Below, one piece after another: positions 3,882 to 19,713 of a DNA stretch of 22,939 nt (the stretch's first letter is position 1; each line of letters opens with the position of its first letter). The stretch covers positions 1 to 22,939 of IMG/VR virus record IMGVR_UViG_3300022198_002536, one strand, 5' to 3'. This stretch comes from a virus. Both the position numbers and the translations under genes were made by a program. Below the pieces are notes generated by a model. The model saw only the letters and a list, made by a program, of their open reading frames with translations, did not search any database and was not told where the DNA came from.

Positions 3882-4094
3882 TTACTCTTCTTCGTACATA
3901 GAAGGATGTTGGTAAATTGTTTTCAAACGATACGGTTTGAGTTTGCGTATGGATGGGTCAAGCCAAAAGAAACCGCATTGCCTACAGTGTAGTAAGTACA
4001 CACGCTCGTTATCATAATCAACAAAACGGCCACTTACTCGTCGTGGTATTTCGTTGCAACCACATACTTTGCATTTTTGTCTAAGTCTATCCAT
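3882..4094 (-). CDS. Small zinc-ribbon protein (70 aa)
   Basis: The protein has two Cys pairs, C8-x2-C11 (plus C13) and C37-x2-C40, the usual four-ligand zinc ribbon, and ends in an acidic MYEEE. The frame is open to 4136, but the ATG at 4094 is preferred because the tiny upstream ORF ends here, sharing the bases ATGGATAG (8-base overlap). It is the last gene of the long - strand module, and its stop lies one base from the convergent fibre stop. Such proteins are often DNA- or protein-binding adaptors. No specific family is recognised. Confidence 0.65.
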   Translation of the reverse strand: MDRLRQKCKVCGCNEIPRRVSGRFVDYDNERVYLLHCRQCGFFWLDPSIRKLKPYRLKTIYQHPSMYEEE

Positions 4095-4179
4095 TAGTCG
4101 GTTTGTTCCAGCACGCCCCACAAAAATCACCATCAATTAAATAATCACATTCTTTTTTACAGATAGAACAAATCTGCAT
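4087..4179 (-). CDS. Mini zinc-binding protein (30 aa, CxxC/CxxC)
   Basis: A short frame fills the gap after the thermosome gene. It encodes C4-x2-C7, C11, C20-x2-C23, so two CxxC knuckles in 30 residues. A perfect AGGTGA ribosome binding site (4184-4189) overlaps the thermosome stop and lies 4 bases before the ATG. The end overlaps the start of the next zinc ribbon by 8 bases. The Cys spacing, the ribosome site and the overlap together argue for a real gene. Function is unknown; a zinc-stabilised binding module is likely. Confidence 0.6.
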   Translation of the reverse strand: MQICSICKKECDYLIDGDFCGACWNKPTNG

Positions 4180-4187
4180 CAAATCAC

Positions 4188-5690
4188 CTATTGTACTGGT
4201 CGTCGTGCTACAATGTCATCAATGCGTAAAATGGCATTGGTGACTTCACCAGCACTAAGTACGGCTTGACGCACTAACTCAACAGGCTCAATGACACCAT
4301 CAGCCAGCAAGTCTTTGACACCGCCATCGGTTACATTTGGGCCAACTGTAAGATTACCATGAAGAATCTCGTGTCGCATAGCAAGGATAGTATCAAGTGG
4401 GTCATGTCCTGCATTTTCAGCAATAGTTGCGGGTACAATTTCCAATGCATCTGCAAACGCCTCAATTGCCATCTGCGCTCTACCGCCTATTTGAGCGGCG
4501 TGCTGGCGCAAGTGCGAGGCCATTCGCACATAAGCATTCCCTCCACCTACAACATATTGCTTGGTTTGCATGACAAGTGATACGACACCAAGTGCATCAT
4601 CAAACCCACGCTCAACTTCTTCAAGCGTATGAGATGTAGCACCACGCAACACCAATGTTGCTTCGTTGCTTTCATTCTCACTACTAACAAACAAATACCA
4701 AACATCATTCTTTCTTTCACGAGTAATTAAAACTTGGCTGGCCGATTCAATTTCTTCGGGATATTGAACAATTGGAATGTTAGCCATACGGCTCATGGCA
4801 CGAAGTGATGATTCGGGTACACGACGAACAACCATAATGTTACTCTTCTTGAGATGTGAACAAACAATATCACTCACTCCATCCCGTACAAATACAACAC
4901 CACCGTTAGGCATCGCCGCTACGACATGTTTTGCACTCGTAATCAAATCAGCCTTGCTTGCACCTTTGTATGTTTGATATGAATTAACATCTAATTGAAC
5001 TTGAATATTATCCTCACTCTTTTCAGTTTCAAGACCCGAATTAATGAGAAGCATGTTTGTGTATGTATCATCACCTTCAAGCACATAGTCCTTGTTCACA
5101 ATCACACCATTGTATAGGTATGAATCTTCAAGTGAACCACCGGGAAATGATACTACCTTAACACTCTCAGCATCACCAGCCTTCTCAACGGCTGATACAC
5201 ATAATTCTGCAACTGCATCAAGCGCACTCTCAAGTGTCTTTCCTGTAATAGCCGTCTTTGCGACTTTAATCAAAGACTCTCGTTCATCACTGCTTTGTGC
5301 AATATCCGATACAAGATACTTAACAGCCATCTGTGCGGCTTCATGATAACCACGACAAATGACATTGGGGTGCAATCCTTTTTCAAACAACATTTCACTG
5401 TTGCCAAGTAATTGACCAGCCAACACGACTGTACTTGTTGTACCATCATAACACAACGATTCTTGTGTACGGGCAACTTCTGCAATCATCTTACCGCCGG
5501 GATGTGATACATCTAATTCACGAAGAATTGTAGCACCATCGTTTGTAACGATAACATTGCCACCACCATCTACCATCATTTTATCCATACCCATCGGGCC
5601 AAGCGTCGTCTTGACTGTTTCAGCAACCGTCTTTGCCGCCCTAATGTTATGTATTTGCGCCTTACCATTTACTCCTTCTTTTTCTGCCAT
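4188..5690 (-). CDS. Thermosome subunit, group II chaperonin (500 aa)
   Basis: This folds proteins with ATP in a double-ring chaperonin of the archaeal/eukaryotic CCT type. Visible landmarks are the N-terminal ATP-site motif [31 protein letters not shown], the GGG..... RMASHLR segment of the returning equatorial domain, [11 protein letters not shown] and the C-terminal [12 protein letters not shown]. At 500 residues it is somewhat shorter than cellular thermosomes (about 540-550) and lacks the Gly/Met-rich tail. The usual Gly before DGTT is Tyr (CYDGTT), and the usual Glu of GGGAxE is Tyr in GGGNAY. I choose the ATG at 5690 because GGTGA lies 5 bases upstream; an in-frame ATG at 5702 has no such site. 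The GGTGA contains the TGA of the upstream exonuclease. Virus-borne thermosomes are a reported feature of magroviruses. It may form its own ring or mix with host subunits. Confidence 0.95.
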
Positions 5691-5695
5691 ATGTT

Positions 5696-6298
5696 TCACC
5701 ATTCAACTTTTATTTCCATTATTTCGCCAGTTTCAAGGCTACGAGAATTGACATAACCATTACTTTTACCAAATTGGTATAAGTCATATGTCAATTTTGC
5801 ATCGTCTAAACAATACTTCGCAACCTCATCATACTTACCTGCTCTCCAAGCAATAGGGGCATCGGCACTGTTCATTAATTTGTTGCTGTCAAAAGTATGT
5901 TTGACAAGCATTCCGAGTGAAGTGTCCACTCGGCCAATGGGTAGTGCCGCACTGCTCACTAAGTTTCGTGTATCAATAATGGAATCGGATTTCATTAAAT
6001 CGTTGGCTGTCCAACAATCAAGCGCATCACGCAATACAGGCAGGTCAAACGCCTTAATGTTATGACCAATGATTTGACCGCCTTTTTCAACATGTTCTGC
6101 TAAGTCATCACCTAATGTACGAGGGTGTAATGCTTTGATTGTACTATCAATACCAAGTGATTCATTACAATACACTGTACCGTTATCACCATCCCATGTT
6201 GCTACAACTGTAGGCTCAAACATATGGGTATTTTTCCAACCACCTATTTCATGTGAAAAATTCCCTGTTTCAATATCTAAAGACAAATAATCGCTCAT
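5696..6298 (-). CDS. DEDDy-type 3'-5' exonuclease (DnaQ-like)
   Basis: This is a stand-alone RNase H-fold exonuclease that removes nucleotides from DNA (or RNA) 3' ends. All three motifs are visible: Exo I D8-I-E10, Exo [10 protein letters not shown] (78-85, with D85), and Exo III Y162-x3-D166, which makes it the DEDDy subtype. Length (200 aa) fits a single-domain enzyme. Its start overlaps the upstream ATPase stop as ATGA. Its own stop (TGGTGA) doubles as the ribosome binding site of the thermosome. PolB in this window carries its own exonuclease motifs, so this may process recombination or host DNA ends rather than proofread. Confidence in fold is high, in substrate low. Confidence 0.85.
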
Positions 6299-7692
6299 TG
6301 TGTATCACCTATTTTTCGTATGTACGCCCGACCACCGTTAGTCTTGGACTTAAACAGCCCTTGACTAAAGTTCTTGAAATGCCTATCGGCTGTACTCTTG
6401 GAAACCTTTGCTCGTTCCATGTAGGTTGAAAGGAAGATATTTTTCAATCTCCACCCATCACCATATCCATCAATTTCGTATGATGTACACTCAAGATAGG
6501 CCGCTATCATAGCATCTTGAGCCTTTGCTTCTTTCTGTTTGTTTCCACCAACTTCAACTGAATCTTCAAGCCATGCGATGAGATTTTGAAATAAGTCAAA
6601 CAAAATTTCGTGTGCCATATCTACATGTGTAGCATTAACTTCCCATGTATTATCAAGAATAGCCATGTGAACAGAAAATATACCTAAGTAATTTTCAATT
6701 GCTGGTGTAAATGATGCGACGATTTCCGCCATTGATGGACTCATATCTCGTAACAAATCATATAATTCATCGGATGCTTGATACAAGGCTGTAGAATATT
6801 CGGGTGTTGCTGAAAACATTTCCCACATATGCTCTTGAACAACTTCTTCTTTACCTTCATTCGTCAATTCCGACCATTGAGTAAAAGTCAATTCGCTTAA
6901 ATCAAGCAAACGGTCACGAATTCTTTTATCGGCATTTCTAAAGTATTCGTATAAATCATCTTTAGTTATGTCAGTTTTTTCCGACCTATTGAAAAATGTA
7001 CCAAGACGACGATTACTTACTTCTTGTCGCTCTTCCATATCCCAATCACGATAATAGAGCAATACACGCTGGAAGATACCTTTTGTAAGTACATACTCCT
7101 TGACACCGCTTGGTGGATAAGTAGTAATCCATAATGATACAAGTGATGGACATTCAACTTTGTTACCCTTCATGTGTTTAACAAGTGTGTTGTTACCACT
7201 CCCTACGGGGTTACAAGCCGTCTGTAGATACAGAACTGTCTCTTGGCTGTGCTTGTTGGGTGTAAGTAAGATTGAACCTTCATCAAAGTTAATCGCTTTG
7301 CGCCCTGCAAGCAACCCCTCAATGGTTTCTACTTCGCCTGTAGGTTTGCCCTTATCATCCACAACATTATTTGTTGAACCAATCAATCCTGCATCTGTAC
7401 CCGATGCAAACAACTCAAAGGGAATGTCGGCTTCCTTCATAATGTCACTGATGAAGTTCCATGCAATGGATTTCCCTGTACGGGATGGTTGAATCCAAAA
7501 GACATGGACTCGTAAATCAAGGTGCGAATCACCTGTGGGTAGTCGTATGTAAGGTAAAGTTGTTTGCCCTTGAATGAAAAAGAATGAAAGCAAACCCGGC
7601 ATATCATTCTTCATGGATGTTTGTGAAAAATGATGTAGATAGGCTTTCAATATCGGGAACTTTTCAACGGCTTGGTAATTTTTAATTTGCAT
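6295..7692 (-). CDS. P-loop ATPase, candidate replicative helicase (465 aa)
   Basis: A Walker A-like loop reads QPSRTGKS (68-75), lacking the usual first Gly, and a Walker B-like strand reads AINFDEGS (133-140). A later segment, KGIFQRVLLYYRDW, resembles the G.l.Rfl region that follows the sensor strand in DUF3987-type phage and plasmid ATPases. The C-terminus (about 400-460) looks like a winged helix (VSKSTADRHFKNF). The arrangement of ATPase plus C-terminal winged helix, and a place in a replisome cluster that otherwise lacks a helicase, make a DNA helicase role likely. The start is supported by GGAGATGA (7697-7704) 4 bases before the ATG, and a TATA-like element lies just upstream. It could instead be a packaging or defence-related ATPase; no MCM signature is clear. 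Confidence 0.6.
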   Translation of the reverse strand: MQIKNYQAVEKFPILKAYLHHFSQTSMKNDMPGLLSFFFIQGQTTLPYIRLPTGDSHLDLRVHVFWIQPSRTGKSIAWNFISDIMKEADIPFELFASGTDAGLIGSTNNVVDDKGKPTGEVETIEGLLAGRKAINFDEGSILLTPNKHSQETVLYLQTACNPVGSGNNTLVKHMKGNKVECPSLVSLWITTYPPSGVKEYVLTKGIFQRVLLYYRDWDMEERQEVSNRRLGTFFNRSEKTDITKDDLYEYFRNADKRIRDRLLDLSELTFTQWSELTNEGKEEVVQEHMWEMFSATPEYSTALYQASDELYDLLRDMSPSMAEIVASFTPAIENYLGIFSVHMAILDNTWEVNATHVDMAHEILFDLFQNLIAWLEDSVEVGGNKQKEAKAQDAMIAAYLECTSYEIDGYGDGWRLKNIFLSTYMERAKVSKSTADRHFKNFSQGLFKSKTNGGRAYIRKIGDTQ

Positions 7693-7696
7693 AGAT

Positions 7697-7732
7697 TCAT
7701 CTCCATTTTCTTCTTCTTTGTTGATTTAAATA
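7697..7732 (-). promoter_or_regulatory. TATA-like promoter block upstream of the P-loop ATPase
   Basis: On the - strand the gap starts with TATTTAAATCAA, then one base, then AAAGAAGAAG (7732 down to 7710), and ends in the ribosome site GGAGATGA (7704-7697). TATTTAAA fits an archaeal TATA box. The same block, with one mismatch over 23 bases, precedes the RFC gene near 19700. The TATA begins 2 bases after the stop of the XPF-type nuclease gene. If transcription begins about 25-27 bases downstream, the leader would be about 10 bases or less. Confidence 0.65.
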
Positions 7733-7734
7733 CT

Positions 7735-8433
7735 CTAACGACGAACTTGGCGTTCCTGCCGAACTGCCTCTTCGCTGGTTAGTACATCAATCAACATCTT
7801 CCTTCGTGTATCACCAAGACCTTTGACTTGCTTGAGTGATTCGGGAAAGCACATTTCTTCAATGCTACCACATTGTTCTAATAATTTCTCAGCCGTTTCT
7901 TGCCCGATGCCGGGTACAGTCATCAATACATCTAACCGTAAGTCATTAGATGCTACACGGCGAATGGTTTGTGCGCCATGCTTACTGGCTGGTTTGTGTA
8001 ACTTATCATGTAAGCGTACAATAAACGATGCCGCTTCACTCACATTGTTACAATAAAATACTTGGCAATCAAAATCGGACATAAGACGAGCAATTGTACC
8101 AATCAATTCATTTTGTACTTGAGAATAAGAAATATTTCTTTTACCATTATTTTTAGCCATAGCGATATACTTAGAAATATCACCATGTACAACAAGAAAG
8201 AAACGCTCGTAGTTTGCATCCATGTTGTCAAGTTGTCGCCACAAATGTCCACTATGGCTTGATTGGAAGAGGTCGCCAATGCTCTTGGCTTCAACGCAAG
8301 CCCCGCCCAGTTGGTAGTCACCCACCACCAAAGGTTGGCGAGATACAGTTAGACCTGCTTTGTGCGCTTTTCGCTCAACGGATTCGCAAAGCAATCCACG
8401 CTCATTTGAATCAATTATGAGTTGCGGCTTCAA
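7735..8433 (-). CDS. XPF/ERCC4-type structure-specific nuclease with HhH domain
   Basis: An ERCC4 nuclease domain occupies residues 1-145, with the GDY motif at 38-40 and VEAKSIGD at 47-54 in place of the usual (V/I)ERKxxxD. A tandem helix-hairpin-helix follows: VPGIGQETAEKLL (173-185) and VKGLGDTRRKMLI (203-215). The family cuts branched DNA such as flaps, bubbles and stalled forks. The start is a TTG: an in-frame TAA lies 6 bases upstream, the next Met (residue 71) would delete the active site, and GGGGGTT precedes the TTG by a few bases. At 232 aa it has no helicase part, like crenarchaeal XPF. It overlaps the upstream winged-helix gene by 23 bases. Confidence 0.88.
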   Translation of the reverse strand: MKPQLIIDSNERGLLCESVERKAHKAGLTVSRQPLVVGDYQLGGACVEAKSIGDLFQSSHSGHLWRQLDNMDANYERFFLVVHGDISKYIAMAKNNGKRNISYSQVQNELIGTIARLMSDFDCQVFYCNNVSEAASFIVRLHDKLHKPASKHGAQTIRRVASNDLRLDVLMTVPGIGQETAEKLLEQCGSIEEMCFPESLKQVKGLGDTRRKMLIDVLTSEEAVRQERQVRR

Positions 8434-8695
8434 TTCTTAACCCCCATACTTTGATGGGATAACTGTAACCTGCATGTAGGCTTTGCATATCCGTTTCCCC
8501 TACTTCTTCAAACTCCTTACATTTGGCTAACATGTTACCTAAACGGGGCATTGTAGGTGCGCACTTAGGCCACTTGTCAAAAAAGCGTGCATGAATCTCT
8601 CGTGTTGAAAGACCGTAATCATCACAGTCTTCTAAAATCTGTACAATTCTTTCAATCGTTCTTATGTTTCTTCGTGAACCGTCACTTCTTGGCAT
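8411..8695 (-). CDS. Winged-helix DNA-binding protein (94 aa)
   Basis: The pattern of helices fits a winged helix-turn-helix: a long helix (about 11-25, IRTIERIVQILEDC), then STREIHARFF (30-39), a linker and the candidate recognition helix TMPRLGNMLAK (48-58), followed by beta-like sequence to the end. It sits between the primase and the XPF-type nuclease genes and overlaps the latter by 23 bases. It may be a transcription regulator or a replication accessory protein. GGAGTTGA precedes the ATG and contains part of the primase 3' end. The family is not recognised by name. Confidence 0.6.
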   Translation of the reverse strand: MPRSDGSRRNIRTIERIVQILEDCDDYGLSTREIHARFFDKWPKCAPTMPRLGNMLAKCKEFEEVGETDMQSLHAGYSYPIKVWGLRIEAATHN

Positions 8696-8697
8696 GT

Positions 8698-9786
8698 TTA
8701 TTCAACTCCTGTTTTATCGTAATACTTACATTTTCCCATACAAAATCCTTCATTGTAAAGCGTAGCACAAGTAGCATGTGAATATCCAGTCATCACAATA
8801 CTTCGTACTTGCTCTTCTGTTTTCGCATAACTATAATCCACCCACTCCTGTTGTTCACAAATGCTCACGATACTTAAGATATGCTTCTCTTTCTCTTCAT
8901 TCGGCACACGCCAAGCAGGGAAGAACATACGAAATCTATCTGCTAAATACGATGCAAAATGGTATCTTGCTCGGTGGGTAGGGTTGCCCCCACCCATTGC
9001 CGCTTGGGATAAACATGGAAGAATGTGTATATCATTTAACGATACCGTTGGTAGTTCAACGGACTTGAGATTGAAATTCTGTGAGAACTTGTTCTCAATT
9101 ATTTTCATCGTTAATTTAATTTCACCGTGTTGGATATATCCAGTGTGAGATTCCATCCCCTTTGTCATGAAATCATCAAAAGTAAAGTTCATGATTTCTT
9201 CACTGGTTAAAGGAAAAGACCACACTCCACGCTTGGCGTTATACGAATTTGGAATACGAATCATACCCGATGTATCAAACATTACCGTTGGGTCATTACA
9301 ATTTAGTACGCCAATTTTATTTTGCCATTGTTTAATTAATTCCCGCCCCGAAGATTTAATCCGAGATACTTCACTTCCGCTTTTAGGTGTAAGACTTTCC
9401 GAAAGTGGAATCCATACATGAAAGCCCCCACCGCTGAACCATACATAGTGTAAGATATTTTCACTCATTAAGAATTGATGTAAGCGTTTTACTTCATTAT
9501 GCGGTACATCAAATGAGACTTCTGTACCACGATTATTGAAATCTTTACAATCAAAATCCATTACGAAATGATGTATGAGTGGTGTATTGTAATCTACACG
9601 ATGATGTTTAGGTGCTTGTGTTTCTGTATATCCATACGCTGTAAAATATACATTACCACTACCATTCTTACCACGCCAATATGATTCTAATTCATCAGCG
9701 TTTTTTACAATGCGCCTCCATCCCTTATCCCCGTTGCTTGATAATTCAAGCACTTCACGAGGATAATCAAGAGGTACAAATGCCAT
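8698..9786 (-). CDS. Archaeo-eukaryotic primase, PriS-like domain plus PriL-CTD-like Fe-S domain
   Basis: This makes RNA or DNA primers. The catalytic AEP core shows VMDFD (D77 and D79), SGGGFHVWIP (H123 in the sxH position) and VMFDTSGMIRIPNS (D171). The C-terminal third resembles the PriL C-terminal domain: ILPC (C258), GNPTHRARYHFASYL, then C340, C349 and C353, four Cys that could hold a 4Fe-4S cluster. Both primase functions would then lie in one 362-aa chain; such fusions are known from archaeal plasmids and viruses. The ATG at 9786 is chosen because GGTGA lies 5 bases upstream; an in-frame GTG at 9795 would sit within that site. The GGTGA contains the upstream gene's TGA. Confidence 0.88.
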   Translation of the reverse strand: MAFVPLDYPREVLELSSNGDKGWRRIVKNADELESYWRGKNGSGNVYFTAYGYTETQAPKHHRVDYNTPLIHHFVMDFDCKDFNNRGTEVSFDVPHNEVKRLHQFLMSENILHYVWFSGGGFHVWIPLSESLTPKSGSEVSRIKSSGRELIKQWQNKIGVLNCNDPTVMFDTSGMIRIPNSYNAKRGVWSFPLTSEEIMNFTFDDFMTKGMESHTGYIQHGEIKLTMKIIENKFSQNFNLKSVELPTVSLNDIHILPCLSQAAMGGGNPTHRARYHFASYLADRFRMFFPAWRVPNEEKEKHILSIVSICEQQEWVDYSYAKTEEQVRSIVMTGYSHATCATLYNEGFCMGKCKYYDKTGVE

Positions 9787-9791
9787 ACATT

Positions 9792-10097
9792 TCACCGTTG
9801 AGAATACAAGTAGTCCACTAAATCATTTTGAATAATATCATATAATTGTACGATTTCATCTTCTTTCAAGTAACGAGCGTGTACAGTGTACATAATATCC
9901 AATGTACCTCTTGGTATAGTTTCCCCGAAACCATCATCTACGAATTCCATCAATGATGTTTGGCGATACACTTGACGGATAAATGGCGCACGATTAGGCA
10001 AATGACCTGCTTTCGTGGACAACACCCTCAATGTGTATTTGTCATTCGGCAATTTTTCTCTCAATACTTTTTCAAGTAATAACACTACATTCAACAT
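9792..10097 (-). CDS. Hypothetical protein (101 aa)
   Basis: No family is recognised. The protein is mixed alpha/beta, has no Cys residues, and carries the acidic run KEDEIVQLYDIIQNDLVDYL near the C-terminus. An N-terminal helix (LLLEKVLREKL) is followed by strand-like sequence, a layout also seen in small tail-completion proteins, but its place between the Cas4-like nuclease and the primase argues for a replication or repair accessory. GGAGG lies 8 bases before the ATG inside the end of the upstream gene, and the ATG directly follows that gene's TAA. The codon usage and spacing support a real gene. Confidence 0.75.
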   Translation of the reverse strand: MLNVVLLLEKVLREKLPNDKYTLRVLSTKAGHLPNRAPFIRQVYRQTSLMEFVDDGFGETIPRGTLDIMYTVHARYLKEDEIVQLYDIIQNDLVDYLYSQR

Positions 10098-11087
10098 TTA
10101 TTCTTCCTCCATTATTTTATCTAACATTTCATCTGTTACTGACCAAAACTCACAATCTTCTTTGTAATCACACCAATCGCATTTCATCATATTTTTACCA
10201 AGAAATGGGTCGGGTGGAAACTCCATATCAATGTGTGCTTTGACTAATTTTTGGAGGCTTTTCTCAACGCTTTGCATTGTGTACTTACCTCCTGTTTTTG
10301 TATCTTCATAGAAGATAGTAGCACCTTCTCCATCTGCCATATTTCCACCGGGAAACTCCCATCCCCAGTGTGTTATAGGCATGAACTCAGCGTGCTTGCT
10401 ATGCTCTATCATCATCTTGTAAAAAGCCATTTCTTTACGCATGGATGGAACTTTTGATTTGGCTTTGTATTTACCAGTCTTTAATTCCATAAGAGCATAT
10501 CCTTCACCATCAGCAAAGAGTGTATCAATAAATCCATTGATGTGTACAGGTATAGCCTCACCATCAACTTCAACAAAGCGTGTAGCATGTACATTCGCTT
10601 CAACTCCTACAGGTCGCCATTGATGTCCACCTGTATGTAACAATCGTTGAAACTGCCACTCAGCCCATTGAGCAATCTGCTCATCTTCGCCATATTCATA
10701 TGGTTCGGGTGGCTGAGGAAATGCACTATAGAATAAACTGCGTGCTTTTTGTATATCATTGACTAATGCCAGTACCTCAGCCTCTTGCTCTTTCGTGAAG
10801 TTCTCCCAAAACCATTCCATCATATCGTGGACATTCAAACCCCGTACATGATGAGGTTGTTGTTCGCCACGCAAACCTTTGAATTTTTCAAGATAGTATT
10901 GTTGTGGACACCAATTGTAAGTACCAAGACTTGACTTTGTAATGCGTAGAATTTTTGTTTCATCTTCATTTGGATTCCACGCATAGGTACTCTTACGGTA
11001 TGATTCAGCCTCTTCGTCGTGACCTGTTTCTGCAAGGTAATCATCTATTGATGGGCGACTATCATCGCCTTTAGGATTAAAACGCAT
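10098..11087 (-). CDS. Cas4/RecB-like PD-(D/E)XK nuclease with Fe-S cysteines
   Basis: A RecB-family nuclease of the Cas4 type (numbering from the first ATG at 11090): C61 in WCPQQYYLEKFKGL, H88 in GLNVHD, D189 in GFIDTLF, E202-x-K204 in MELKTGK, a QxxxY-like EMAFYK (220-225), and C304, C307 and C313 in CDWCDYKEDC. The four Cys match the 4Fe-4S site of Cas4/AddB-type enzymes. Such enzymes resect DNA ends and, in viruses, serve recombination, replication or end processing. No other cas gene is nearby, so CRISPR adaptation is unlikely. Two ATGs stand in tandem. I choose the second (11087), 6 bases after GGTGA; the first overlaps the TGA of the small Cys-rich ORF as ATGA and is equally possible. 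Confidence 0.9.
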   Translation of the reverse strand: MRFNPKGDDSRPSIDDYLAETGHDEEAESYRKSTYAWNPNEDETKILRITKSSLGTYNWCPQQYYLEKFKGLRGEQQPHHVRGLNVHDMMEWFWENFTKEQEAEVLALVNDIQKARSLFYSAFPQPPEPYEYGEDEQIAQWAEWQFQRLLHTGGHQWRPVGVEANVHATRFVEVDGEAIPVHINGFIDTLFADGEGYALMELKTGKYKAKSKVPSMRKEMAFYKMMIEHSKHAEFMPITHWGWEFPGGNMADGEGATIFYEDTKTGGKYTMQSVEKSLQKLVKAHIDMEFPPDPFLGKNMMKCDWCDYKEDCEFWSVTDEMLDKIMEEE

Positions 11088-11185
11088 CATTGTTCACCAT
11101 TCCATCCATCACAATCACAATGTTCACTACAATTCTTACACACTGAACAATTGTGGTCTGCTTCACAAAAGTTACATTCACTCAT
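11087..11185 (-). CDS. Mini Cys-rich protein (32 aa, seven Cys)
   Basis: A short frame fills the gap between the Cas4-like gene and the gene before it. It encodes C4, C7, C13, C16, C19, C23 and C25 with H11 and H22, so several overlapping CxxC pairs able to bind one or two zinc ions. GGTGA lies 6 bases before the ATG. The start shares one base with the upstream TGA (TGATG), and the stop forms ATGA with the Cas4-like start. This fits the packing of the confirmed genes. Function is unknown. Confidence 0.55.
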   Translation of the reverse strand: MSECNFCEADHNCSVCKNCSEHCDCDGWNGEQ

Positions 11186-11361
11186 CAGTTTTCACCATCC
11201 AAAGTCTTTTGCGACATGTCAAAGAATTCATACAACTTTGTTTGCCTACTTTTAGGTAAATCAAATCTACCGCATGTAGGGCAAACCGATGTACTCTTCC
11301 ACCATGTTCTTTTCTTTACTGGTGAATCTTTTACTTTATTCCAAAACTTCCACTTGCTCAT
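11185..11361 (-). CDS. Small basic protein with a CPTC motif (58 aa)
   Basis: The start at 11361 overlaps the upstream stop as ATGA and is preceded by GGAGG; the longer frame to 11436 would lie inside the upstream gene. The protein begins MSKWKFWNKVKD, is Lys/Trp-rich, and has a single C-P-T-C pair followed by GRFDLP. One CxxC pair could bind zinc as a dimer or with other ligands. No family is recognised. It belongs to a run of four tiny genes between the MORC-like gene and the Cas4-like nuclease gene. Confidence 0.6.
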   Translation of the reverse strand: MSKWKFWNKVKDSPVKKRTWWKSTSVCPTCGRFDLPKSRQTKLYEFFDMSQKTLDGEN

Positions 11362-11543
11362 TGGCTCGCCTCCTGTATCAATCGCTGAACATATACTGCG
11401 GCATCCATGAGTTCTTCCTGTAGATGAGTGAGCCACTCAACAAGGTTAAGGTCGCCTCGTTCCATCGTTACACCATACTTGGCTTTACCGACCTCAGCCC
11501 GTTGTTGAATCTTAGCGCATACTTCATCTTCAATGCGACTCAT
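11358..11543 (-). CDS. MazG-like NTP pyrophosphohydrolase-type small protein (61 aa)
   Basis: The sequence follows a pattern frequent in phage genomes: a helix with QQRAEVGKAKYGVT, an 'RGDLNL' turn, then EWLTHLQEELMDAAVYVQRL. The EELMD segment (43-47) resembles the ExxxD metal-binding helix of MazG/dUTPase-like all-alpha NTP pyrophosphohydrolases, which cleave (d)NTPs to monophosphate. At 61 residues it would hold only one half of the usual four-helix bundle and would need to form oligomers. The start overlaps the upstream 36-aa ORF stop as ATGA. Family assignment is by pattern only. Confidence 0.55.
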   Translation of the reverse strand: MSRIEDEVCAKIQQRAEVGKAKYGVTMERGDLNLVEWLTHLQEELMDAAVYVQRLIQEASQ

Positions 11544-11650
11544 TCTTCTTCAACCCCGTACAACTTTTTGGCCTTATCGTAATAGCCATCTATCTGTCTT
11601 TCTTCTTCTTGCGTTCTTAGTTTTTCAAATAGCCAATCCCAAAATCCCAT
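11540..11650 (-). CDS. Small hypothetical protein (36 aa)
   Basis: This is a short frame with an unusually good ribosome site, AGGAGGT, 8 bases before the ATG, embedded in the end of the MORC-like gene. The protein begins MGFWDWLFEKLR, an amphipathic Trp/Phe-rich helix, and ends in acidic VEEE; 14 of 36 residues are charged Lys, Arg, Glu or Asp in the second half. The stop forms ATGA with the next gene. The amphipathic start could contact a membrane or a partner protein. No family is recognised. Confidence 0.55.
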   Translation of the reverse strand: MGFWDWLFEKLRTQEEERQIDGYYDKAKKLYGVEEE

Positions 11651-11651
11651 C

Positions 11652-13106
11652 TTACTTACCTCCTACATTCAAATATGTAGCGAGTACCGTTTTATGTTGA
11701 GTTGATTTTTCATCCCAATATGATATGTTAAAATCTTTGAGTAACGGCTTCCAATGCTCTTCAAATTGTTTCTTTGCATTCGCAAGTATATTCTTAGCAA
11801 ATACTACACCTTGTTTTGCATTTACAGTAACCATATATCCAACTAATTGATTCATGTCTTGTGCATTAAAATTACCTTTCTTAACTTCAAATACATACAT
11901 TGTATCACCGCTATTGGCAGTTACATCCATACTTAAATTAGTATCAGTGGATTCTTCTGTTTTCACATCATTCCATATTGAATCACCCGAAGGTAAAACT
12001 TGCGCCTTCAAATAATCAGCCAATGCATCACGAATTAAAGATTCACTTACACTATCGTAGTCATCTTCATCTTCGGGTGGATTAAAGAAACTTGAAATTT
12101 TACCTTCTTTGATAGTTTCAGCAATGGCCTTTTTGACTTCCATCCACATGTCTGTTTGTTGTACTCCATCTTTCTTGGGTGTAGTAGGTAAATGCCCTTC
12201 TTTGATTACTAATTGACCAACGAGTGCATTTAATGATGTGTGATTTTTTGGCCTCCATTCTGTAAGAGGTTCATATGTACGATGCATAATAACTCGTTCA
12301 TTTTGTATAACATCTATTCCACCACCGTAACTGCATTTGGCCCACATACCTTCGTGTGCATCGGGACTCATACCTATTGTAAGTTCACCCACAATATCTT
12401 TAGTCGTAATTTCCTTCTTTAGTAAATGCACATTAGTAGATGTTGTAGGATGAAAATACGGAGGGAAAATTGGTTTAACAATAGATGATACAGGATTACC
12501 TTTTGCATCTTTCATTATATATCCTGTGGACACATCAACCTCATTAATTGTAATATTACCTCCATTTTGAATAAATAATCCATAACGCACACCTAACATA
12601 TCTCTTAATGCAATAACTCTTTGCGCCGCATAAATGTTTAATTCAACACTTATTTGTATTTTTGTGCCAGTTCTATCGGGTACGGTAATTTCATCTTCAA
12701 TCAAAAGGTCGTTTCCTTCATAACCGTAAATACAATACGAATCTACTCCATCATAAGAATAAATTTTGTCCAATCCTTTTCGTATATCCGAACTACCAAA
12801 ATATGCAATCGCACTTTTCATTCCGACTCCATGTTCATGTACACCTTGATTTGTTCTTGCACCAACACTCAATGCTACACTTGCATCATTAAGTGAAATT
12901 CCGCATCCGTCATCTATTACAGATATTTTCTTAATACTTCTTTGTCCAAAATTTTCAACAAGTAAATTAATTGATATGTTTTTTGCGCTTACTATCGCAT
13001 TATCAATTAATTCATTCAATGCCGTATAAAAAGTGAAACCACTTTTTGACATTGTGTTCGCCATTAATTCATTGTTGCTCTCCATCTTCAATATTTTCTT
13101 TGCCAT
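11652..13106 (-). CDS. MORC-like GHKL ATPase fused to a C-terminal PD-(D/E)XK-like nuclease domain (484 aa)
   Basis: The N-terminal GHKL ATP-binding fold shows ALNELIDNAI (Asn/Asp motif, about 29-38), VIDDGCGIS (63-71) and GVHEHGVGMKSAIAYFG (88-104). An S5-like second domain follows, with the W.KCSYGGGIDVIQNERVI segment and LPTTPKKDGVQQTDMW, which resembles the conserved 'P.T..K..F' end of MORC proteins. The C-terminal part has LSMDVTA (D394), VFEVKKG (E407 and K409) and Q420, the order expected for a PD-(D/E)XK nuclease. MORC-type ATPases clamp DNA on ATP binding, and prokaryotic relatives occur with restriction systems. The ATG at 13106 is chosen because GGTGA, formed from the PolB stop, is 5 bases upstream; an in-frame GTG at 13118 is the alternative. 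Its role here is unknown: DNA remodelling, host DNA degradation or competitor exclusion. Confidence 0.8.
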   Translation of the reverse strand: MAKKILKMESNNELMANTMSKSGFTFYTALNELIDNAIVSAKNISINLLVENFGQRSIKKISVIDDGCGISLNDASVALSVGARTNQGVHEHGVGMKSAIAYFGSSDIRKGLDKIYSYDGVDSYCIYGYEGNDLLIEDEITVPDRTGTKIQISVELNIYAAQRVIALRDMLGVRYGLFIQNGGNITINEVDVSTGYIMKDAKGNPVSSIVKPIFPPYFHPTTSTNVHLLKKEITTKDIVGELTIGMSPDAHEGMWAKCSYGGGIDVIQNERVIMHRTYEPLTEWRPKNHTSLNALVGQLVIKEGHLPTTPKKDGVQQTDMWMEVKKAIAETIKEGKISSFFNPPEDEDDYDSVSESLIRDALADYLKAQVLPSGDSIWNDVKTEESTDTNLSMDVTANSGDTMYVFEVKKGNFNAQDMNQLVGYMVTVNAKQGVVFAKNILANAKKQFEEHWKPLLKDFNISYWDEKSTQHKTVLATYLNVGGK

Positions 13107-13111
13107 GTTCT

Positions 13112-15511
13112 TCACCACATTTTTCTCGGCACTCGGCGTGCCGTCAGCCTTTCTAAATCCCAGTCAAGTGTTTCATACACCGACTTTAATTTACTATGAA
13201 TCCATTTATTTACAATAGTAGTCCAGTCAATACTGTACTCACTCAATTGACGCTCATCCTCAAAACCTACAACATTACAGTAAGGCTGGCCTTCGGGTAC
13301 ATCATCTACAAATATCCAGCGCACGCTATCATTCTTTCCGTATGAAGTACCCAAGTATTCATTTGAATAGCGTGCCGCTTTAGCAGGATTGGGTACTACC
13401 TTATCATATTCATTTAGATTCTTACTGATAGAACCATATGAAGATGCCTCAGTTGGTGTTATACTACCTTCATACACAGACTTGACTTGTGGGCGTACAG
13501 CATGATGAATTGTATCTTCATCATCACCACTTGAAATCATTTGGAATACTTTACCCAGTATTTCTTTTGTGAGTGGTGGGGCGTTTGATGCCTTAATTGA
13601 AAACCCAGTGACTTTCATATCACCTGCATCTTCGGGAGGCCATGACTTGATACCAAAGTTACGATTTTTGACATTAGCCGTGAACCAGTACGGGAAGAAT
13701 GCTTCTAATTCTACATCAAGATACTTTAGCCCCATTTCATTTTGTGCAATATCGGTAAGGCGTTGGGCTACAACCTCAGCCTCTTCAAACGGAACTTGAA
13801 TATAACATGAATCTGTATGACCTGCAAGGCCACGATACCCCATTTCTTCGCTCTTTTTAACGAGCATAGATATTGACTCACGACCAAGATAAGTAATGGA
13901 CTGAGCAATCTCATAACTACTCCATTGTCCACGAACTTTCCTACTACCAACCATACCGTAAATTGCGTTCACTGCAACCTTTACAGCCATCTGTAACATA
14001 TTGTAACCCAACTTCTCATCGGGGTCAGTGGAGGTTTTCATGAGGTTTTTGTAATGCTTACGAAGGGCAAGCATATCTTTGACGACCTTTGGAAGCAAAC
14101 CTTCCTTGTCTTGTCGCCAATGGAATACACCACCTGTACCGGGAATATAGTTACCATCGTCATCTATCTTAGCAGGTATGTCAAGAGTAAGAATATTTGG
14201 CCCTGCATGGTCACACATGGTAGTCCAACACAGATTGGCCGAGAGAATGATATTTGGATATAGGGATGCGAAATCCACCAGTGCTACATTTTGGTGGCGA
14301 CCAGCAACAGGAGGCATAACCCATGCCGCTTGTAAATCGGGTCGCTCTTCAATAAATGATGTAGGTGCTTTGAGATTTGTTTTACGGCCAATTAAACCAC
14401 GAAAGTATCTGCTTACATTATGTGTGCTACCGAACTGTACACCAGCCACTTGTTGTAATGCAAAGTGGAAATCAGTACAGTGTAACTTCTCGTCAATGTC
14501 ACGCAACAAAGTGGTATCAACTAAACAGTAATCAACGAAGTCATCATAGTAATCACTCCATCCATTGTGTACAGTCATTCCTTCAATATCATCAGTGAGT
14601 TTGTGACCTAAACCAAGTTCAGTAGCGAACCAGTTTAACTTGCGTTGTTGTGCTTTGCCACGACCACTCTTTTGCCATACACCTTCAAACCCACTTCCTT
14701 CTTCCCATCGTGCGGCTGAGTCAAATACTAAACGACCTTTGATGGGTTGGCCTGTAACCTTGTAACCTTCATTATTTTTCTTTGGTGGTAAAAAGATTCC
14801 AAGTGGTGACATATCGTGCTTAAGTACACCCATGCGGTCATGTAACTTTGGTAAATCAGCCCATGCCCCTGCATGAGCAATCAGCATATCGGGGTCACGC
14901 TCTTTGAGGTAATCTAAGAAACCTGCAAGCATCTTATCCTCGTTACGATATGTACGGAGTTCGTAGCCACCGTAACGGTCAATCCATTCAGTCTTAGTAA
15001 TACTCAAGCGTATGGATTCTTCACTCCATGAAAACACTACAGGATGTTCAGCATCACTGTCAGCAACCGCCATGACGGTAATAGCACCATCACCAGTTGT
15101 TTGCCACTCTAAATCGTAATACCACTTACGAGGATGAAATTCGGGAATACCTTCGGGATAGTTGGTAAGAAGGATTTGGTCAAGATAATTCAAATCAGCC
15201 TCATGTGTCCATTTACCAACCGCTTCTTTGATTTCCCAAAGGGTATTAGGATGATTAACTTCTACCTTCCATAACTTACCACCATCAAGTCCTGTACCGA
15301 TTTCATCAGTAAGAATACGAGCATGGAAATTGCGTAAGCGATTGAGTACCCATGTCGGTGCATTCTGTCGCAACCAACAGAACGGGTACACGAAGTCGTT
15401 ATCTTCATGAGTAATGTAACGCTCTTTGAGTACACCATCAGCACCACGAGTACGCTCATAAATTATGGGCGGCTCATATGGGTCATCCGATGTGTAATCA
15501 ATAATCATCAT
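13112..15511 (-). CDS. polB: Family B DNA polymerase with 3'-5' exonuclease domain (799 aa)
   Basis: This is the replicative polymerase. The exonuclease domain shows Exo I D133-L-E135 (YYDLEW), an Exo II-like HAGAWADLPKL with D219, and Exo III Y328-x3-D332. The polymerase domain shows motif A DFASLYPNII (D413), motif B K511-VAV-N515-AIYG and motif C GHTDS (565-568). Motif C normally reads DTDS; here the first Asp is His (codon CAT) while the second Asp (D567), the one that pairs with motif A in catalysis, is kept. Exo II has Ala where Asn is usual. The ATG overlaps the PCNA stop as ATGA, with a second ATG one codon later. The stop is part of the next gene's ribosome site. Clamp and loader genes lie immediately upstream. 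Confidence 0.96.
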   Translation of the reverse strand: MMIIDYTSDDPYEPPIIYERTRGADGVLKERYITHEDNDFVYPFCWLRQNAPTWVLNRLRNFHARILTDEIGTGLDGGKLWKVEVNHPNTLWEIKEAVGKWTHEADLNYLDQILLTNYPEGIPEFHPRKWYYDLEWQTTGDGAITVMAVADSDAEHPVVFSWSEESIRLSITKTEWIDRYGGYELRTYRNEDKMLAGFLDYLKERDPDMLIAHAGAWADLPKLHDRMGVLKHDMSPLGIFLPPKKNNEGYKVTGQPIKGRLVFDSAARWEEGSGFEGVWQKSGRGKAQQRKLNWFATELGLGHKLTDDIEGMTVHNGWSDYYDDFVDYCLVDTTLLRDIDEKLHCTDFHFALQQVAGVQFGSTHNVSRYFRGLIGRKTNLKAPTSFIEERPDLQAAWVMPPVAGRHQNVALVDFASLYPNIILSANLCWTTMCDHAGPNILTLDIPAKIDDDGNYIPGTGGVFHWRQDKEGLLPKVVKDMLALRKHYKNLMKTSTDPDEKLGYNMLQMAVKVAVNAIYGMVGSRKVRGQWSSYEIAQSITYLGRESISMLVKKSEEMGYRGLAGHTDSCYIQVPFEEAEVVAQRLTDIAQNEMGLKYLDVELEAFFPYWFTANVKNRNFGIKSWPPEDAGDMKVTGFSIKASNAPPLTKEILGKVFQMISSGDDEDTIHHAVRPQVKSVYEGSITPTEASSYGSISKNLNEYDKVVPNPAKAARYSNEYLGTSYGKNDSVRWIFVDDVPEGQPYCNVVGFEDERQLSEYSIDWTTIVNKWIHSKLKSVYETLDWDLERLTARRVPRKMW

Positions 15512-16260
15512 TCATCACTCTCATTTACAATCATCAGTAAAGTATTCGTTTGGTCAAAAATTATCATACTGTTATCACCCATATACAATCTTGCTTGACC
15601 ATCATCAAGGAACTGCAAACAAGTAGGCAACCAATCTCCAAAGTGAGTTTCAACCGTAGCATTCGGGCCAGCACTATCCATGAGAGGTAAAACAGTGAAG
15701 AGTCGGCCAGTAGCGGCTTTGCCAGCCACGATACCGAATTCACCTTCACCGCAATGCGCTCGTACTTTGTATAATGAATCATCAGCCAACAAGCCTTTCA
15801 TACCAGCAAGGGAAATCAAATCCTTCGTTTTAACCGTAGCATGTACGCTCAACTCATCGCCATTGAATGTAGCCCAACCACTGGCTGTTGCCTTCTCCAA
15901 CATCTTACCAATGATAACAGTTTTAGCGGCTGAGGTTATATCATCTGTACTTGGTATCTGTAATTTGTTACCGCCAGCCTCTATGTGTAAAGGTTTAGTT
16001 TCACCAACTTGTCGTAGTATAACATTGTCTTGCTTACTTGACTTAAGGAATAAGATTGCTTTTTCAAGAAGTGCGATATGAATGAATCCCTCTTCTTCAA
16101 CAGTTACACCTAACAATTGCTTTCGCAAGTAATAATTTGCGAAGCCGACTTCAATGGTAATACGATTACCCGTACAATTCAATCGGGCATCTGTTACACC
16201 CTTTCCAAACGAGGAAAGGAAGTCAAGCAAACTTTTTCTTTCAGCAGTAATTTTCGTCAT
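15508..16260 (-). CDS. pcn: Sliding clamp, PCNA (250 aa)
   Basis: This is the ring-forming processivity factor for the DNA polymerase. Length (250 aa) matches archaeal PCNA, and the two-lobed pattern is visible. An N-terminal helix (KSLLDFLSSFG) precedes strand pairs, the central linker lies near 115-130 (TVIIGKMLEKA), the second lobe starts around VKTKDLISLAG, and the C-terminus shows LPTCLQFLDDGQARLYMGDN. The sequence is divergent but order and context (next to PolB, downstream of RFC) make the call secure. A GAGGTGA ribosome site lies 4 bases before the ATG. It forms ATGA overlaps on both sides: its stop with PolB, and its start with the 46-aa ORF. Confidence 0.9.
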   Translation of the reverse strand: MTKITAERKSLLDFLSSFGKGVTDARLNCTGNRITIEVGFANYYLRKQLLGVTVEEEGFIHIALLEKAILFLKSSKQDNVILRQVGETKPLHIEAGGNKLQIPSTDDITSAAKTVIIGKMLEKATASGWATFNGDELSVHATVKTKDLISLAGMKGLLADDSLYKVRAHCGEGEFGIVAGKAATGRLFTVLPLMDSAGPNATVETHFGDWLPTCLQFLDDGQARLYMGDNSMIIFDQTNTLLMIVNESDE

Positions 16261-16397
16261 AATATCACCTCATGGATGGGGAACAGAAGGAATGGAATGA
16301 ATTCCCTTGACGGCGTTGATTCACCTTTACTGTTCATTACTCCATCAAAACCATCCACAATTACGGGGTGCAATTGAGCATCACAAACTCCCATCAT
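16257..16397 (-). CDS. Possible small protein between RadA-like and PCNA genes (46 aa)
   Basis: A single open frame spans the only 120-base gap in the replication block. It starts with tandem ATGs inside the end of the RadA-like gene (17-base overlap, or 14 from the second ATG) and its TGA forms ATGA with the PCNA start. The product has a mixed, globular-looking composition and ends in a hydrophobic FIPFLLFPIHEVIL. No good ribosome site precedes it, so translation would depend on coupling to the upstream gene. If it is not a gene, the gap holds nothing else that I can recognise. Confidence 0.45.
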   Translation of the reverse strand: MMGVCDAQLHPVIVDGFDGVMNSKGESTPSREFIPFLLFPIHEVIL

Positions 16398-17376
16398 AGA
16401 GTTCGGGCAAGCCGAACCATTGTGGTTCACCATTAGGATATGTTACAAACACGGTACGAGATTGGTCTTGAAGCATAGGGTTCGTCTTACACTTTTTGAA
16501 GCGAGCCTTGTACTCAATCTTGACCAATTCATTTTCATCGTTGTAGTGTTCTTCTTGTTCCATCCAAATAATTGTAGGGAGGTAGTTGTTAGTTTTCTTT
16601 TCCCATTCGGGTTGCCATGAAGCATTACTACTACTGTCAGTACCGTAAGAAAAGTTTGTTGAGCGAAGATGTGTTTCCCAAAAGACACGGACACCAGCAC
16701 GCACAAGGCTACGAGAAAGTGCTGTGAGTTGATGAAACCGAGTGTTACGAATTGCCCAATCGGACTGTCGCTCAACACGCTTTGCATCACCAGCACCACG
16801 AATGTCAGCCGACTCAATACCATCCTTAGCCAATCCTAAGTCAATGATACGCATGTTGTTGGTACAAATCTCCAACCATGAATCAAGACCACTTACCAAT
16901 ACGCCCCATACATCAGCCTCACCGCTTTCAACTTGGGATAAGATGTATCGCATAATGTTCATCACACGGTCATGAGTGCCGGGATAATCATAAGCAGTAC
17001 GGTCATTCGTACCCATTTGCCACGGTTTCCATGATGTAATATTCGGATTTTTATTTACCGCTGAATTAAGCATGGCTACTCCCATGTCAAAATCAATAGC
17101 GTGCATCTGTGCATTAGGATGAGTCTTTAGATACTCTCCAAAAGCATGAGAAACCATGCCCGACTTACCTGTACCATCAAATCCTGCAATACCAATAAAC
17201 ATGTGTTGTAGTGGTTCGCTCTTCATCTTCTGTTCTTCTGCACGAAGGTCAGCAAACATATCCACCTTAACCCCAGTCTTTACTGGGGTAGATGCACCAT
17301 AAGCACCAGTATGTTGTACCGATGCTTCTTCCTTCAATGCTTCTTGCGCCTTCGCTGTTTGTCCGAATCCTGCCAT
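16381..17376 (-). CDS. RadA/RecA-like P-loop ATPase (331 aa)
   Basis: This is a RecA-fold ATPase, with Walker A GFDGTGKS at 65-72 and a Walker B-like strand VWGVLVSGLDS ending in D165. An Asp-containing strand AIDFD (93-97) and a later strand RVFWETHL follow, as in RecA/RadA/Sak4-type proteins. The N-terminal 55 residues are low-complexity and lack the helix-hairpin-helix domain of cellular RadA, so it is closer to short viral recombinases or DnaB-like Sak4 proteins. It probably anneals or exchanges strands, or loads replication proteins. AGGTGA lies 5 bases before the ATG. It follows the ssDNA-binding protein gene and precedes PCNA. Confidence 0.75.
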   Translation of the reverse strand: MAGFGQTAKAQEALKEEASVQHTGAYGASTPVKTGVKVDMFADLRAEEQKMKSEPLQHMFIGIAGFDGTGKSGMVSHAFGEYLKTHPNAQMHAIDFDMGVAMLNSAVNKNPNITSWKPWQMGTNDRTAYDYPGTHDRVMNIMRYILSQVESGEADVWGVLVSGLDSWLEICTNNMRIIDLGLAKDGIESADIRGAGDAKRVERQSDWAIRNTRFHQLTALSRSLVRAGVRVFWETHLRSTNFSYGTDSSSNASWQPEWEKKTNNYLPTIIWMEQEEHYNDENELVKIEYKARFKKCKTNPMLQDQSRTVFVTYPNGEPQWFGLPELYDGSL

Positions 17377-17387
17377 TTATTTCACCT

Positions 17388-18743
17388 TCAATTAAATTGT
17401 CCTACTCCTGTGTCGCCACCTTCCATTCGGCGGCGGGAACGGCGTGGGTCAGCATAGATGCCGAATGCCGTTAGTTTAGGAGTGGGAAGTCCGTCTTTCG
17501 CTTTCATACCAAGACGACCAAAGACAAGCACTGTGGTTCTCTCAGCGTATGGGAATGCATGTTCACCCCAATGAGATACGAATGGTTGAGTACACTTTCC
17601 TACAGCACCGGGAATCCAACAATCAATGTCACCAGCAATACTGCTTGAAAGCGTCATGCTATAATTGAATCCTTCTTCATCAAATTCGGACTCACGAGGC
17701 TCGGTACTCATACGAGTGATTGTACCTTTCGTGATGACGAGTGGCCCATACGCACGCTTTTCACCTGCGATGTTAAGGAACTCTTTCTTTGATTCAAATG
17801 TTTCTTCAAGTGAATCAATGTGTACAAACAAATCATGAAGTTCTGTGTCAGCCAAGTATCGTGAAGGGTGCAAAAGTGGTCGCACATCTTCATTCACGAA
17901 CTCATCAGTGTATGTAATTTCAACTTCACTGTATGTCGTGAGTACATCTTTGAATGCTTCTGTAGCATTCTCTCGTGGAGGTACAACTTGAACTTTACAA
18001 GGGCGACCAATATTAACAGAAAGGTATCGGTTATCATTCGTCATGTCAATACGCCACAACTGAATGTTACCGTTCTTAACGAACTCTTCTTCTTGATTGC
18101 CCAAGAAGTAGTAGTAACGACCCAACTGCTTTTCGGGTGATGCTTTGTTGTTGTAGGTTGTCAAACAAACCCATGCACCGTTCTGTGTCTTGATACCATG
18201 TGGTGGTACAGGATTTTCCGCTACAGCCAATTCTGTGTTTTCCAATCCTTCTTTGGTACGCAAGTACCAATACCCACCTTCATTCTCATAGACACCAAGA
18301 CGACCCGAACCGATTGCGTCAGCAGGGTCATCTGCAAACAACTTCAAGTTGGACTTGACAATGTTCGCAAGACGGTCACGAGCCTTGTCAGCGACACCAA
18401 CAAAGCACCCAACCCATGTCTGTAACTTACTGTTACCGCCACCGCTTGAGCGTCGTGTAACCACAATCATCTGTTCTGCCCAATCAATGAGTAAATCTGC
18501 ATCTTCACTCGCAGGGTCATCAACACCATATTGCATTTTTACTTCTGCAAAGAATTCAGCCGTTACTTCATCCATTGTTTTTCCTGTTCTTTCTGCATAC
18601 GCTGAAATGCGGGAGAGAACTTCTTGAGGTAGCGCACTTGTAGTAGCGTTACCTGTTACTGCCGTGAAGCCGTTTGATTCGGCCACTGGCATATCCACCC
18701 CGTCAATTTCACCGTATTCATCTTCGTTATCCCATGTACTCAT
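17388..18743 (-). CDS. Replication protein A-like ssDNA-binding protein, putative (451 aa)
   Basis: I see no enzyme motif. The acidic N-terminus (about 1-20) is followed by a helical part (40-95), then long beta-rich stretches consistent with one or more OB folds. One starts around 108 with TWVGCFVGVADKARDRL and another near 330-410 with ITKGTITRMS and CWIPGAVGKC. The end is basic then Gly-rich (RRSRRRMEGGDTGVGQF). A gene of this size between the clamp loader and the RadA-like ATPase fits an RPA-type protein that coats single-stranded DNA. A GAGGTGA ribosome site is 4 bases upstream and the start overlaps the RFC stop as ATGA. A different accessory role cannot be excluded. Confidence 0.55.
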   Translation of the reverse strand: MSTWDNEDEYGEIDGVDMPVAESNGFTAVTGNATTSALPQEVLSRISAYAERTGKTMDEVTAEFFAEVKMQYGVDDPASEDADLLIDWAEQMIVVTRRSSGGGNSKLQTWVGCFVGVADKARDRLANIVKSNLKLFADDPADAIGSGRLGVYENEGGYWYLRTKEGLENTELAVAENPVPPHGIKTQNGAWVCLTTYNNKASPEKQLGRYYYFLGNQEEEFVKNGNIQLWRIDMTNDNRYLSVNIGRPCKVQVVPPRENATEAFKDVLTTYSEVEITYTDEFVNEDVRPLLHPSRYLADTELHDLFVHIDSLEETFESKKEFLNIAGEKRAYGPLVITKGTITRMSTEPRESEFDEEGFNYSMTLSSSIAGDIDCWIPGAVGKCTQPFVSHWGEHAFPYAERTTVLVFGRLGMKAKDGLPTPKLTAFGIYADPRRSRRRMEGGDTGVGQFN

Positions 18744-19683: not shown

Positions 19684-19713
19684 TCATCTCCTTCTTCTTT
19701 CTTGATTTAAATA
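19684..19713 (-). promoter_or_regulatory. TATA-like promoter block upstream of RFC-S
   Basis: On the - strand this reads TATTTAAATCAA, one base, then AAAGAAGAAG, running directly into GGAGATGA. It differs from the block before the P-loop ATPase gene at one base of 23, and the distal copy has six extra bases before the ribosome site. TATTTAAA fits an archaeal TATA box. Its centre lies about 31 bases from the ATG, so the transcript would be nearly leaderless. It probably starts the replisome operon. Confidence 0.65.

Follow-up and report, generated by a model that had tools for sequence, protein, structure and literature searches.

A short block of DNA stands almost unchanged before two sets of genes on the minus strand of a virus record, and the question raised by this locus is what the block does and what would read it. 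The window, i.e., the whole stretch of DNA that was analysed, is a 22,939-base IMG/VR virus record. The explanation that we favour, and regard as probable, is that the block is a virus-wide core promoter for replication units, in which positions 9-14 (counted from the first TATA base as position 1) are read by a sequence-specific factor, be it viral or a host TFB.

The repeated block and the genes behind it

The sequence TATTTAAATCAA-n-AAAGAAGAAG occurs on the minus strand at 7732-7710 (block A) and 19713-19691 (block B) with 22 of 23 bases alike, as the initial annotation had reported. This is the sole pair of 23-mers with at most one mismatch on the minus strand of the window; 100 dinucleotide shuffles yielded 0.01 such pairs on average (maximum 1), which rules out a chance origin of the pair. 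The next best place for the block in a scan of the window has 7 mismatches, and the TATATAAA, TATTTAAA and TTTATAAA octamers, searched on both strands, are present only within blocks A and B. Block A (7710..7732) consists of a TATA box (7732-7725), a virus-specific stretch (7724-7719, positions 9-14) and a purine-rich tail. The same order is found in block B (19691..19713), with its TATA box at 19713-19706, virus-specific stretch at 19705-19700 and purine-rich tail. Both have orthologous blocks in relatives, that of block A before the corresponding gene and that of block B before the clamp-loader gene.

Each block was also said to be followed by GGAGATGA and an ATG. The GGAGATGA stretch does follow both blocks (7704-7697 and 19691-19684, minus strand), but its register from the TATA box differs between the two copies (positions 29-36 in block A versus 23-30 in block B), and it is therefore not part of the block. 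Unlike its spacing to the TATA box, its spacing to the ATG is SD-like in both copies, and at block A, where it lies 4 nt before the ATG at 7692, it may act as an SD site. The gene behind block B is likely to start at the ATG at 19678 (MAWNEL..., as in relatives) and not at 19687. The statement that the blocks fill the only sizeable gaps without a gene on this strand was half right: open reading frames of at least 50 aa also leave gaps of 94, 108, 120, 75 and 51 bases, and at least the first three of these contain small open frames by eye.

Behind block A, open reading frames and Pfam matches delineate a minus-strand unit (3882..7692) that encodes a 465 aa protein with no fold assigned (6295-7692), a weakly matched exonuclease-like protein (5696-6298; Pfam), a thermosome of the TCP-1/cpn60 type (4188-5702; Pfam) and a Zn-ribbon-like protein (3882-4136). 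The presumed extent of this unit is based on the fact that no other TATA octamer is present in the window. The "helicase" label given earlier to the 465 aa protein found no support in Pfam, PHROGs or PDB profile searches, none of which returned a match for it. The protein shows 82% mean column identity among 15 sequences and contains, by eye, a P-loop-like PSRTGKS. The putative unit behind block B (7735..19678, minus strand) would extend from an RFC-like AAA+ clamp loader (18740-19678; Pfam) through a family B polymerase, PolB (13112-15511; Pfam), a HATPase (11652-13118), a PD-(D/E)XK nuclease (10098-11090; Pfam), a primase-like protein (8698-9795; PHROG, E 9.1e-6) and a winged-helix protein (8411-8695) to an ERCC4 nuclease (7735-8433; Pfam), together with others. 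The genes of the plus strand are taken as structural on the basis of their position. The PolB, clamp loader, chaperonin and two opposed gene clusters of the window (Pfam, strand map) match the description of the Magrovirales, for which the ICTV profile of the Aoguangviridae lists the same features (PMC10768690), and the layout and gene set of the window thus fit a magrovirus-like virus.

A promoter class in related contigs

Relatives were obtained through scans with both proteins behind the blocks, which gave 14 and 64 loci; the upstream sequences were inspected at 13 and 60 of these, respectively, the remainder being cut inside the gene. By eye, a TATA-like box and then a purine-rich stretch lie upstream of the relatives' genes (one locus, L096, is cut 24 bases upstream and was not judged), and the first impression from these sequences was that both promoters are alike inside one contig and different between contigs. 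Twenty IMG/VR relatives were then fetched as whole contigs, giving a set of 21 with the window. A TATWTAAAYYRRNAAAGA-type pattern, with one mismatch allowed, had matches in 15 of the 20 contigs, on a single strand per contig, and its reversed control had none; exact matches of the consensus pattern numbered up to 6-8 in single virus contigs. In a seed-free count, 13-mers of the block ranked with the most frequent repeated 13-mers of several contigs. When each contig was searched with its own seed (at most 4 mismatches), 1 to 11 gene-strand sites were found in each of 20 contigs (the window and all relatives but G020); the few extra sites that appear at this threshold without the TATA filter resemble chance matches inside genes.

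Eighty-four copies on the replication-gene strand of 17 contigs (the window and 16 IMG/VR relatives) were kept. All 84 carry a TATA variant, having been selected for one, and they were also chosen by likeness to the seed of their own contig, so that identity over all pairs within a contig is biased. Of the 86 TATATAAA, TATTTAAA or TTTATAAA octamers on the gene strand of these contigs (~0.97 Mb), 78 fall in a copy and 8 outside, and 6 such octamers occur on the opposite strand. The block is not simply used twice, as first described: contigs that include more of the replication strand have 5-10 copies each. The genes behind them encode the clamp loader, the 465 aa protein, a DUF932 protein, many small proteins of no assigned function and, in contig G011, a member of an SNF2-type helicase family (the family was assigned on its G003 member). 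The late-strand upstream regions of six contigs, examined by eye, contain no copy of the block. A promoter class of magrovirus replication units is well supported. By the same comparison, both units of the window belong to one shared class, which upholds this part of the one-regulon claim; they may also be co-regulated.

The search among relatives, proposed at the outset, thus brought out the class in 17 contigs, but the exact block of the window is no marker of it, because each virus has its own version. The exact block was found in 34 stretches of viral contigs, none of them with similarity to the relatives' replication-strand proteins, and most share a CAAGAT-TATTTAAATCAAGAAAGAAG context that appears, by eye, to be coding sequence of another virus group. 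In 294 archaeal genomes, which represent the phylum of one archaeal hit and may not include Poseidoniales, TATWTAAAYYRRNAAAGA had 6 matches, i.e., chance level, not above the reversed control. A thermosome genome scan, performed as a host search, returned 80 loci, none of which is labelled Poseidoniales.

The 84 sites have a characteristic anatomy, wherein the TATA box occupies positions 1-8, the virus-specific stretch positions 9-14, and a pyrimidine-purine step positions 28/29. The virus-specific core extends to position 21, AAAGA at positions 14-18 is common to most lineages, and positions 15-27 have a mean purine content of ~92%. The comparison of relatives bears out the claim of likeness beyond the TATA box, since the promoter block continues past it. 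The A/G-rich tail had been proposed as the factor site; the tail is, however, similar in all lineages, and positions 9-14 are more likely to be factor-specific. Upstream of the TATA box, G occurs at -6 in 42% of the sites, G at -3 in 49% and A at -2 in 74%; in the available part of PMC11065993, the archaeal BRE is described as G and A at -6 and -3, respectively.

Position 28 is T in 75 of the 84 copies. The start codon lies at positions 32-39 in 66 copies and at 41 or beyond, or unassigned, in 18; the latter have T28 in 17 cases and the pyrimidine-purine step in 16, the step being present in 56 of the 66 near-start copies. We read the 28/29 step as the initiator. The predicted T28-G29 step of block A (7704..7705) would place the RNA start at 7704 and give a leader of 12 nt, and that of block B (19685..19686) would place it at 19685, with a leader of 7 nt to the ATG at 19678. 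The nearly leaderless transcripts that had been suggested are therefore likely, provided that the 28/29 step is the start. For block B, GGAGATGA (19684..19691) overlaps the predicted start site, and a start at 28/29 would exclude the SD-like stretch from the transcript; either read-through transcripts may make use of it, or the true start may be further upstream.

The position of the start codon, at 35-38 in 64 of the 84 copies, and the GGAG/GGTGA-like stretch before it are also what would be seen with an RNA-level element, i.e., a leader or translation signal comparable to the start-associated sequences (SAS) of cluster K mycobacteriophages, instead of a promoter. This explanation is extremely improbable, as the TATA box and T28 hold a constant distance while the start codon moves to positions 41-66 (several of the 18 far-start copies carry an SD-like stretch of their own close to the ATG), the conserved part stops well upstream of the start codon, and the TATA octamers are almost absent outside the copies. 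Like the blocks, the SAS are repeated, oriented, restricted to non-structural genes and near start codons; unlike them, the SAS resemble an SD site and lie 3-7 bp from the start codon, according to the accessible portion of PMC3203893, whereas the block is a TATA promoter that ends further upstream. In the magrovirus copies this short spacing is not found, the core ending at position 21 and the start codon being mostly at 35-38.

Concerted change of orthologous promoters

The change of the promoters was assessed on the two orthologous promoters only, in 17 of the 21 contigs and with 20,000 permutations; G012, G019 and G020 lack one or both promoters, G009, which is almost a duplicate of G008, was omitted, and the exceptional G010 was included. 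At positions 9-14, identity is 0.88 between the two promoters within a contig and 0.45 between orthologues; the corresponding values are 0.98 and 0.87 for positions 1-8 and 0.89 and 0.60 for positions 9-21, and in none of the three cases did any of the 20,000 permutations reach the observed value. The flanks show no such excess over the orthologue mean (0.36 versus 0.34 at -19..-4, and 0.42 versus 0.41 at 31-50), although their within-contig values exceed the permutation mean, being reached by 175 and 132 of the 20,000 permutations, respectively. Of 16 contigs (G013 left out), 15 have a within-contig identity above both orthologue means, and G010 is the exception. Since identity is far higher within contigs than between orthologues in the promoter and not in the flanks, the promoter letters change in concert. 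The class is multi-copy and strand-specific, with a fixed geometry and, in each virus, concerted change with sharp borders. Taken by itself, the block of the window looks like an ordinary archaeal promoter, but it belongs to a virus-wide set whose code is its own and changes.

The seven copies of G003 are identical over 18 bases, while at the orthologous sites its relatives G001 and G002 (89% core identity) carry a different version. Two dissimilar promoters are present in G010, and one odd copy in each of G005 and G007; the odd copies (G005 at 13720, G007 at 15328, and G010) carry CCAANAAAGA beside CTRRAAWWGA and possibly represent a transition state between two codes.

Short, near-identical copies, dispersed and in one orientation, might also result from homogenisation, in which gene conversion or promoter transplantation makes the copies alike without any reader. 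We consider this very unlikely: identity ends at functional borders, with no within-contig excess over the orthologue mean in the flanks, and conversion tracts of ~25 bases would be needed repeatedly at orthologous sites. Change in concert whose limits coincide with those of the promoter favours a shared reader and disfavours gene conversion.

A stronger competitor, although still a rather unlikely one, is that the virus matches its host. Positions 9-14 and the purine stretch would then reflect the preference of the host basal machinery (TFB contacts behind the TATA box, melting region) with no viral regulator, and the codes of the viruses would differ since their Poseidoniales hosts differ. 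The TATA and initiator geometry is that of an archaeal promoter, in which a TATA-like box precedes the start by about 25 bases, no TFB or TBP was found in the 21 contigs searched, and the HF2 repeats promote transcription in Haloferax without viral proteins, as stated in the part of PMC8707807 available. Moreover, G001 and G016, which belong to distant lineages (67% core identity), both carry TCGGCAAAGA, as expected if hosts set the code. Against this, no copy of the element is visible by eye before late-strand genes of the same viruses, and a change between contigs of ~90% core identity would probably be fast for host machinery.

Under the preferred reading of a core promoter with a sequence-specific reader, the block would represent a virus-wide class of core promoters from which the transcription units of the magrovirus replication strand start. 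The host TBP and TFB would bind the TATA box, which would be read by the host RNA polymerase, and the modules would follow in the order TATA box, virus-specific stretch (9-14), purine-rich stretch and pyrimidine-purine initiator (28/29). We infer that one sequence-specific DNA-binding factor reads the 9-14 stretch of all copies, either an early regulator encoded by the virus or a factor of the TFB type that contacts DNA just behind the TATA box. With a single reader for all copies, a change of the reader would oblige the whole set to follow, and the replication units would be switched together through it.

Candidate readers and known systems

No TFIIB domain was found in the 21 contigs, nor in the 10 that were searched at E <= 10 with a positive control, and no TBP domain in the 21, so that a viral TFB was rejected as the reader. 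The PF08271 Zn-ribbon gave weak matches in 4 of the 21 contigs, none above the cut-off. A TFB is named in the ICTV profile, in a figure legend for YSH_150918 (PMC10768690).

Two proteins of the window may be considered as leads only. The first (19748..20203, minus strand) is encoded directly upstream of block B, and its family is found directly upstream of the clamp loader in 18 of the 21 contigs; G012, G019 and G020 have no match and likewise no listed clamp-loader promoter. The window's own protein has no Pfam or PHROG match. Its AlphaFold model (pLDDT 85.6) gave LAGLIDADG enzymes in all 50 listed VIA-align matches (Z 6.2-7.5, 117-128 aligned, rmsd 3.4-4.3) and LAGLIDADG homing endonucleases as the first 37 Foldseek matches (best E 9e-3). 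The model thus suggests a LAGLIDADG homing endonuclease fold, with caution, as Z is below 8. In LAGLIDADG homing endonucleases, the motif helix ends with an acidic residue that serves in catalysis, and no D/E is present at residues 13-18 in any of the 16 sequences of this family, the catalytic position of the window's protein being devoid of an acidic residue. A known regulator, WhiA, is a homing-endonuclease relative (PMC3781837, available in part).

A self/non-self promoter code, in which a virus-encoded protein, possibly this nuclease-dead LAGLIDADG-fold protein, reads positions 9-14 of its own virus, is a distinctly doubtful extension. If true, the regulator would act on the replication units of its own virus but leave alone those of co-infecting relatives, and a homing-endonuclease fold would have turned into a viral transcription factor with co-evolving sites. 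Coevolution was examined by partial rank correlations of block distance with 16 protein families, with core distance as covariate and uncorrected for multiple tests; the LAGLIDADG-fold protein was not associated with block distance once phylogeny was allowed for (partial rho -0.04, p 0.65). The highest partial correlations, likewise uncorrected, were those of the 465 aa protein (0.41), itself part of the core distance that served as covariate, a 451 aa protein (0.32) and a 101 aa protein (0.29); we place no weight on these values.

The second lead is the fast-evolving winged-helix protein (8411..8695, minus strand), a relative of 2od5 and DUF3860. Its profile matches 2od5 with E 2.6e-9, and the 2od5 structure is the first of 50 listed matches (Z 10.6, 85 aligned, rmsd 3.6); Pfam DUF3860 is matched in 3 of 9 family members, the window's own protein not among them. 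The 2od5 protein, which putatively binds nucleic acids, comes from an uncultured marine organism and may itself derive from a magrovirus. The winged-helix gene is found in 11 of the 21 contigs, and several others have Zn-ribbon-like frames at that place.

The kind of promoter described here is already known from Sulfolobales viruses (SIRV2, SIFV, SMV and others), which have virus-specific consensus early regulatory sequences around a TATA/BRE core. Like the magrovirus blocks, these consist of one TATA-core sequence common to many genes per virus, and the sequence around the core differs strongly between viruses; different regulators are inferred, and the winged-helix repressor Aca8 was proposed for SIRV2. 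The Sulfolobales sequences precede single, mostly small genes, which are transcribed right after infection and predicted to be anti-defence, whereas those of the magroviruses, which are tailed viruses of marine archaea, precede replisome and chaperonin units as well as small genes. For the magroviruses, in addition, a comparison of orthologous promoters has revealed their concerted change (all Sulfolobales statements from the part of PMC11065993 at hand). The SIRV1/SIRV2 GTC motif is, like positions 9-14, a cis element that follows the TATA box directly and is specific to the virus (PMC5569661, in part). GTC is absent, by eye, from the 9-18 strings of all 84 sites, and the magrovirus stretch is longer and lineage-variable.

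The HF2 class I and II intergenic repeats are, like the blocks, TATA promoters before early-middle genes, and their mapped starts go with a TATA box beginning at -26; unlike the blocks, they measure 58 and 29 bp, the repeats and their positions are strongly conserved across the genus, and within-genome concerted change is not reported in the available text (PMC8707807). The genomes of cluster A mycobacteriophages, like those of magroviruses, contain numerous oriented sites, whose consensus is specific to the virus and varies among relatives; that of the operators and stoperators follows the repressor. Most stoperators are located away from promoters (PMC6550527, as far as accessible), whereas the listed magrovirus copies are promoter cores, having been TATA-selected. 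For MG-II, a Red Sea metatranscriptome reports start sites, with no consensus given in the part available (PMC5069720).

As far as the literature searched extends, three points are new: the class occurs in magroviruses, it covers replisome units, and the change in concert of orthologous promoters has been measured. Our partial coverage of the literature on magrovirus, Poseidoniales and Marine Group II promoters revealed no such map, and the present one would be the first regulon map, from sequence only, for abundant uncultured marine archaeal viruses. The concerted change raises a testable question, namely whether the host TFB or a viral protein reads the bases behind the TATA box of an archaeal virus. 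By analogy with the reasoning in the accessible part of PMC11065993, the small genes behind the copies would be natural anti-defence candidates.

Other repeated sequences were observed in these contigs. On the gene strand of G001 (95,367 bases), GGAGGAATGAACA 13-mers occur six times and represent a second repeated start-linked sequence. On the late strand of G011, G015 and G019, a GCGAAA-TTATAA/TTATAT-like stretch precedes what is apparently the same late gene; from its sequence in two or three contigs, this could possibly be a late promoter. The contig ends of G001, G011 and G019 carry CCCATAGCAC / CATAGCA-like repeats in non-coding sequence.
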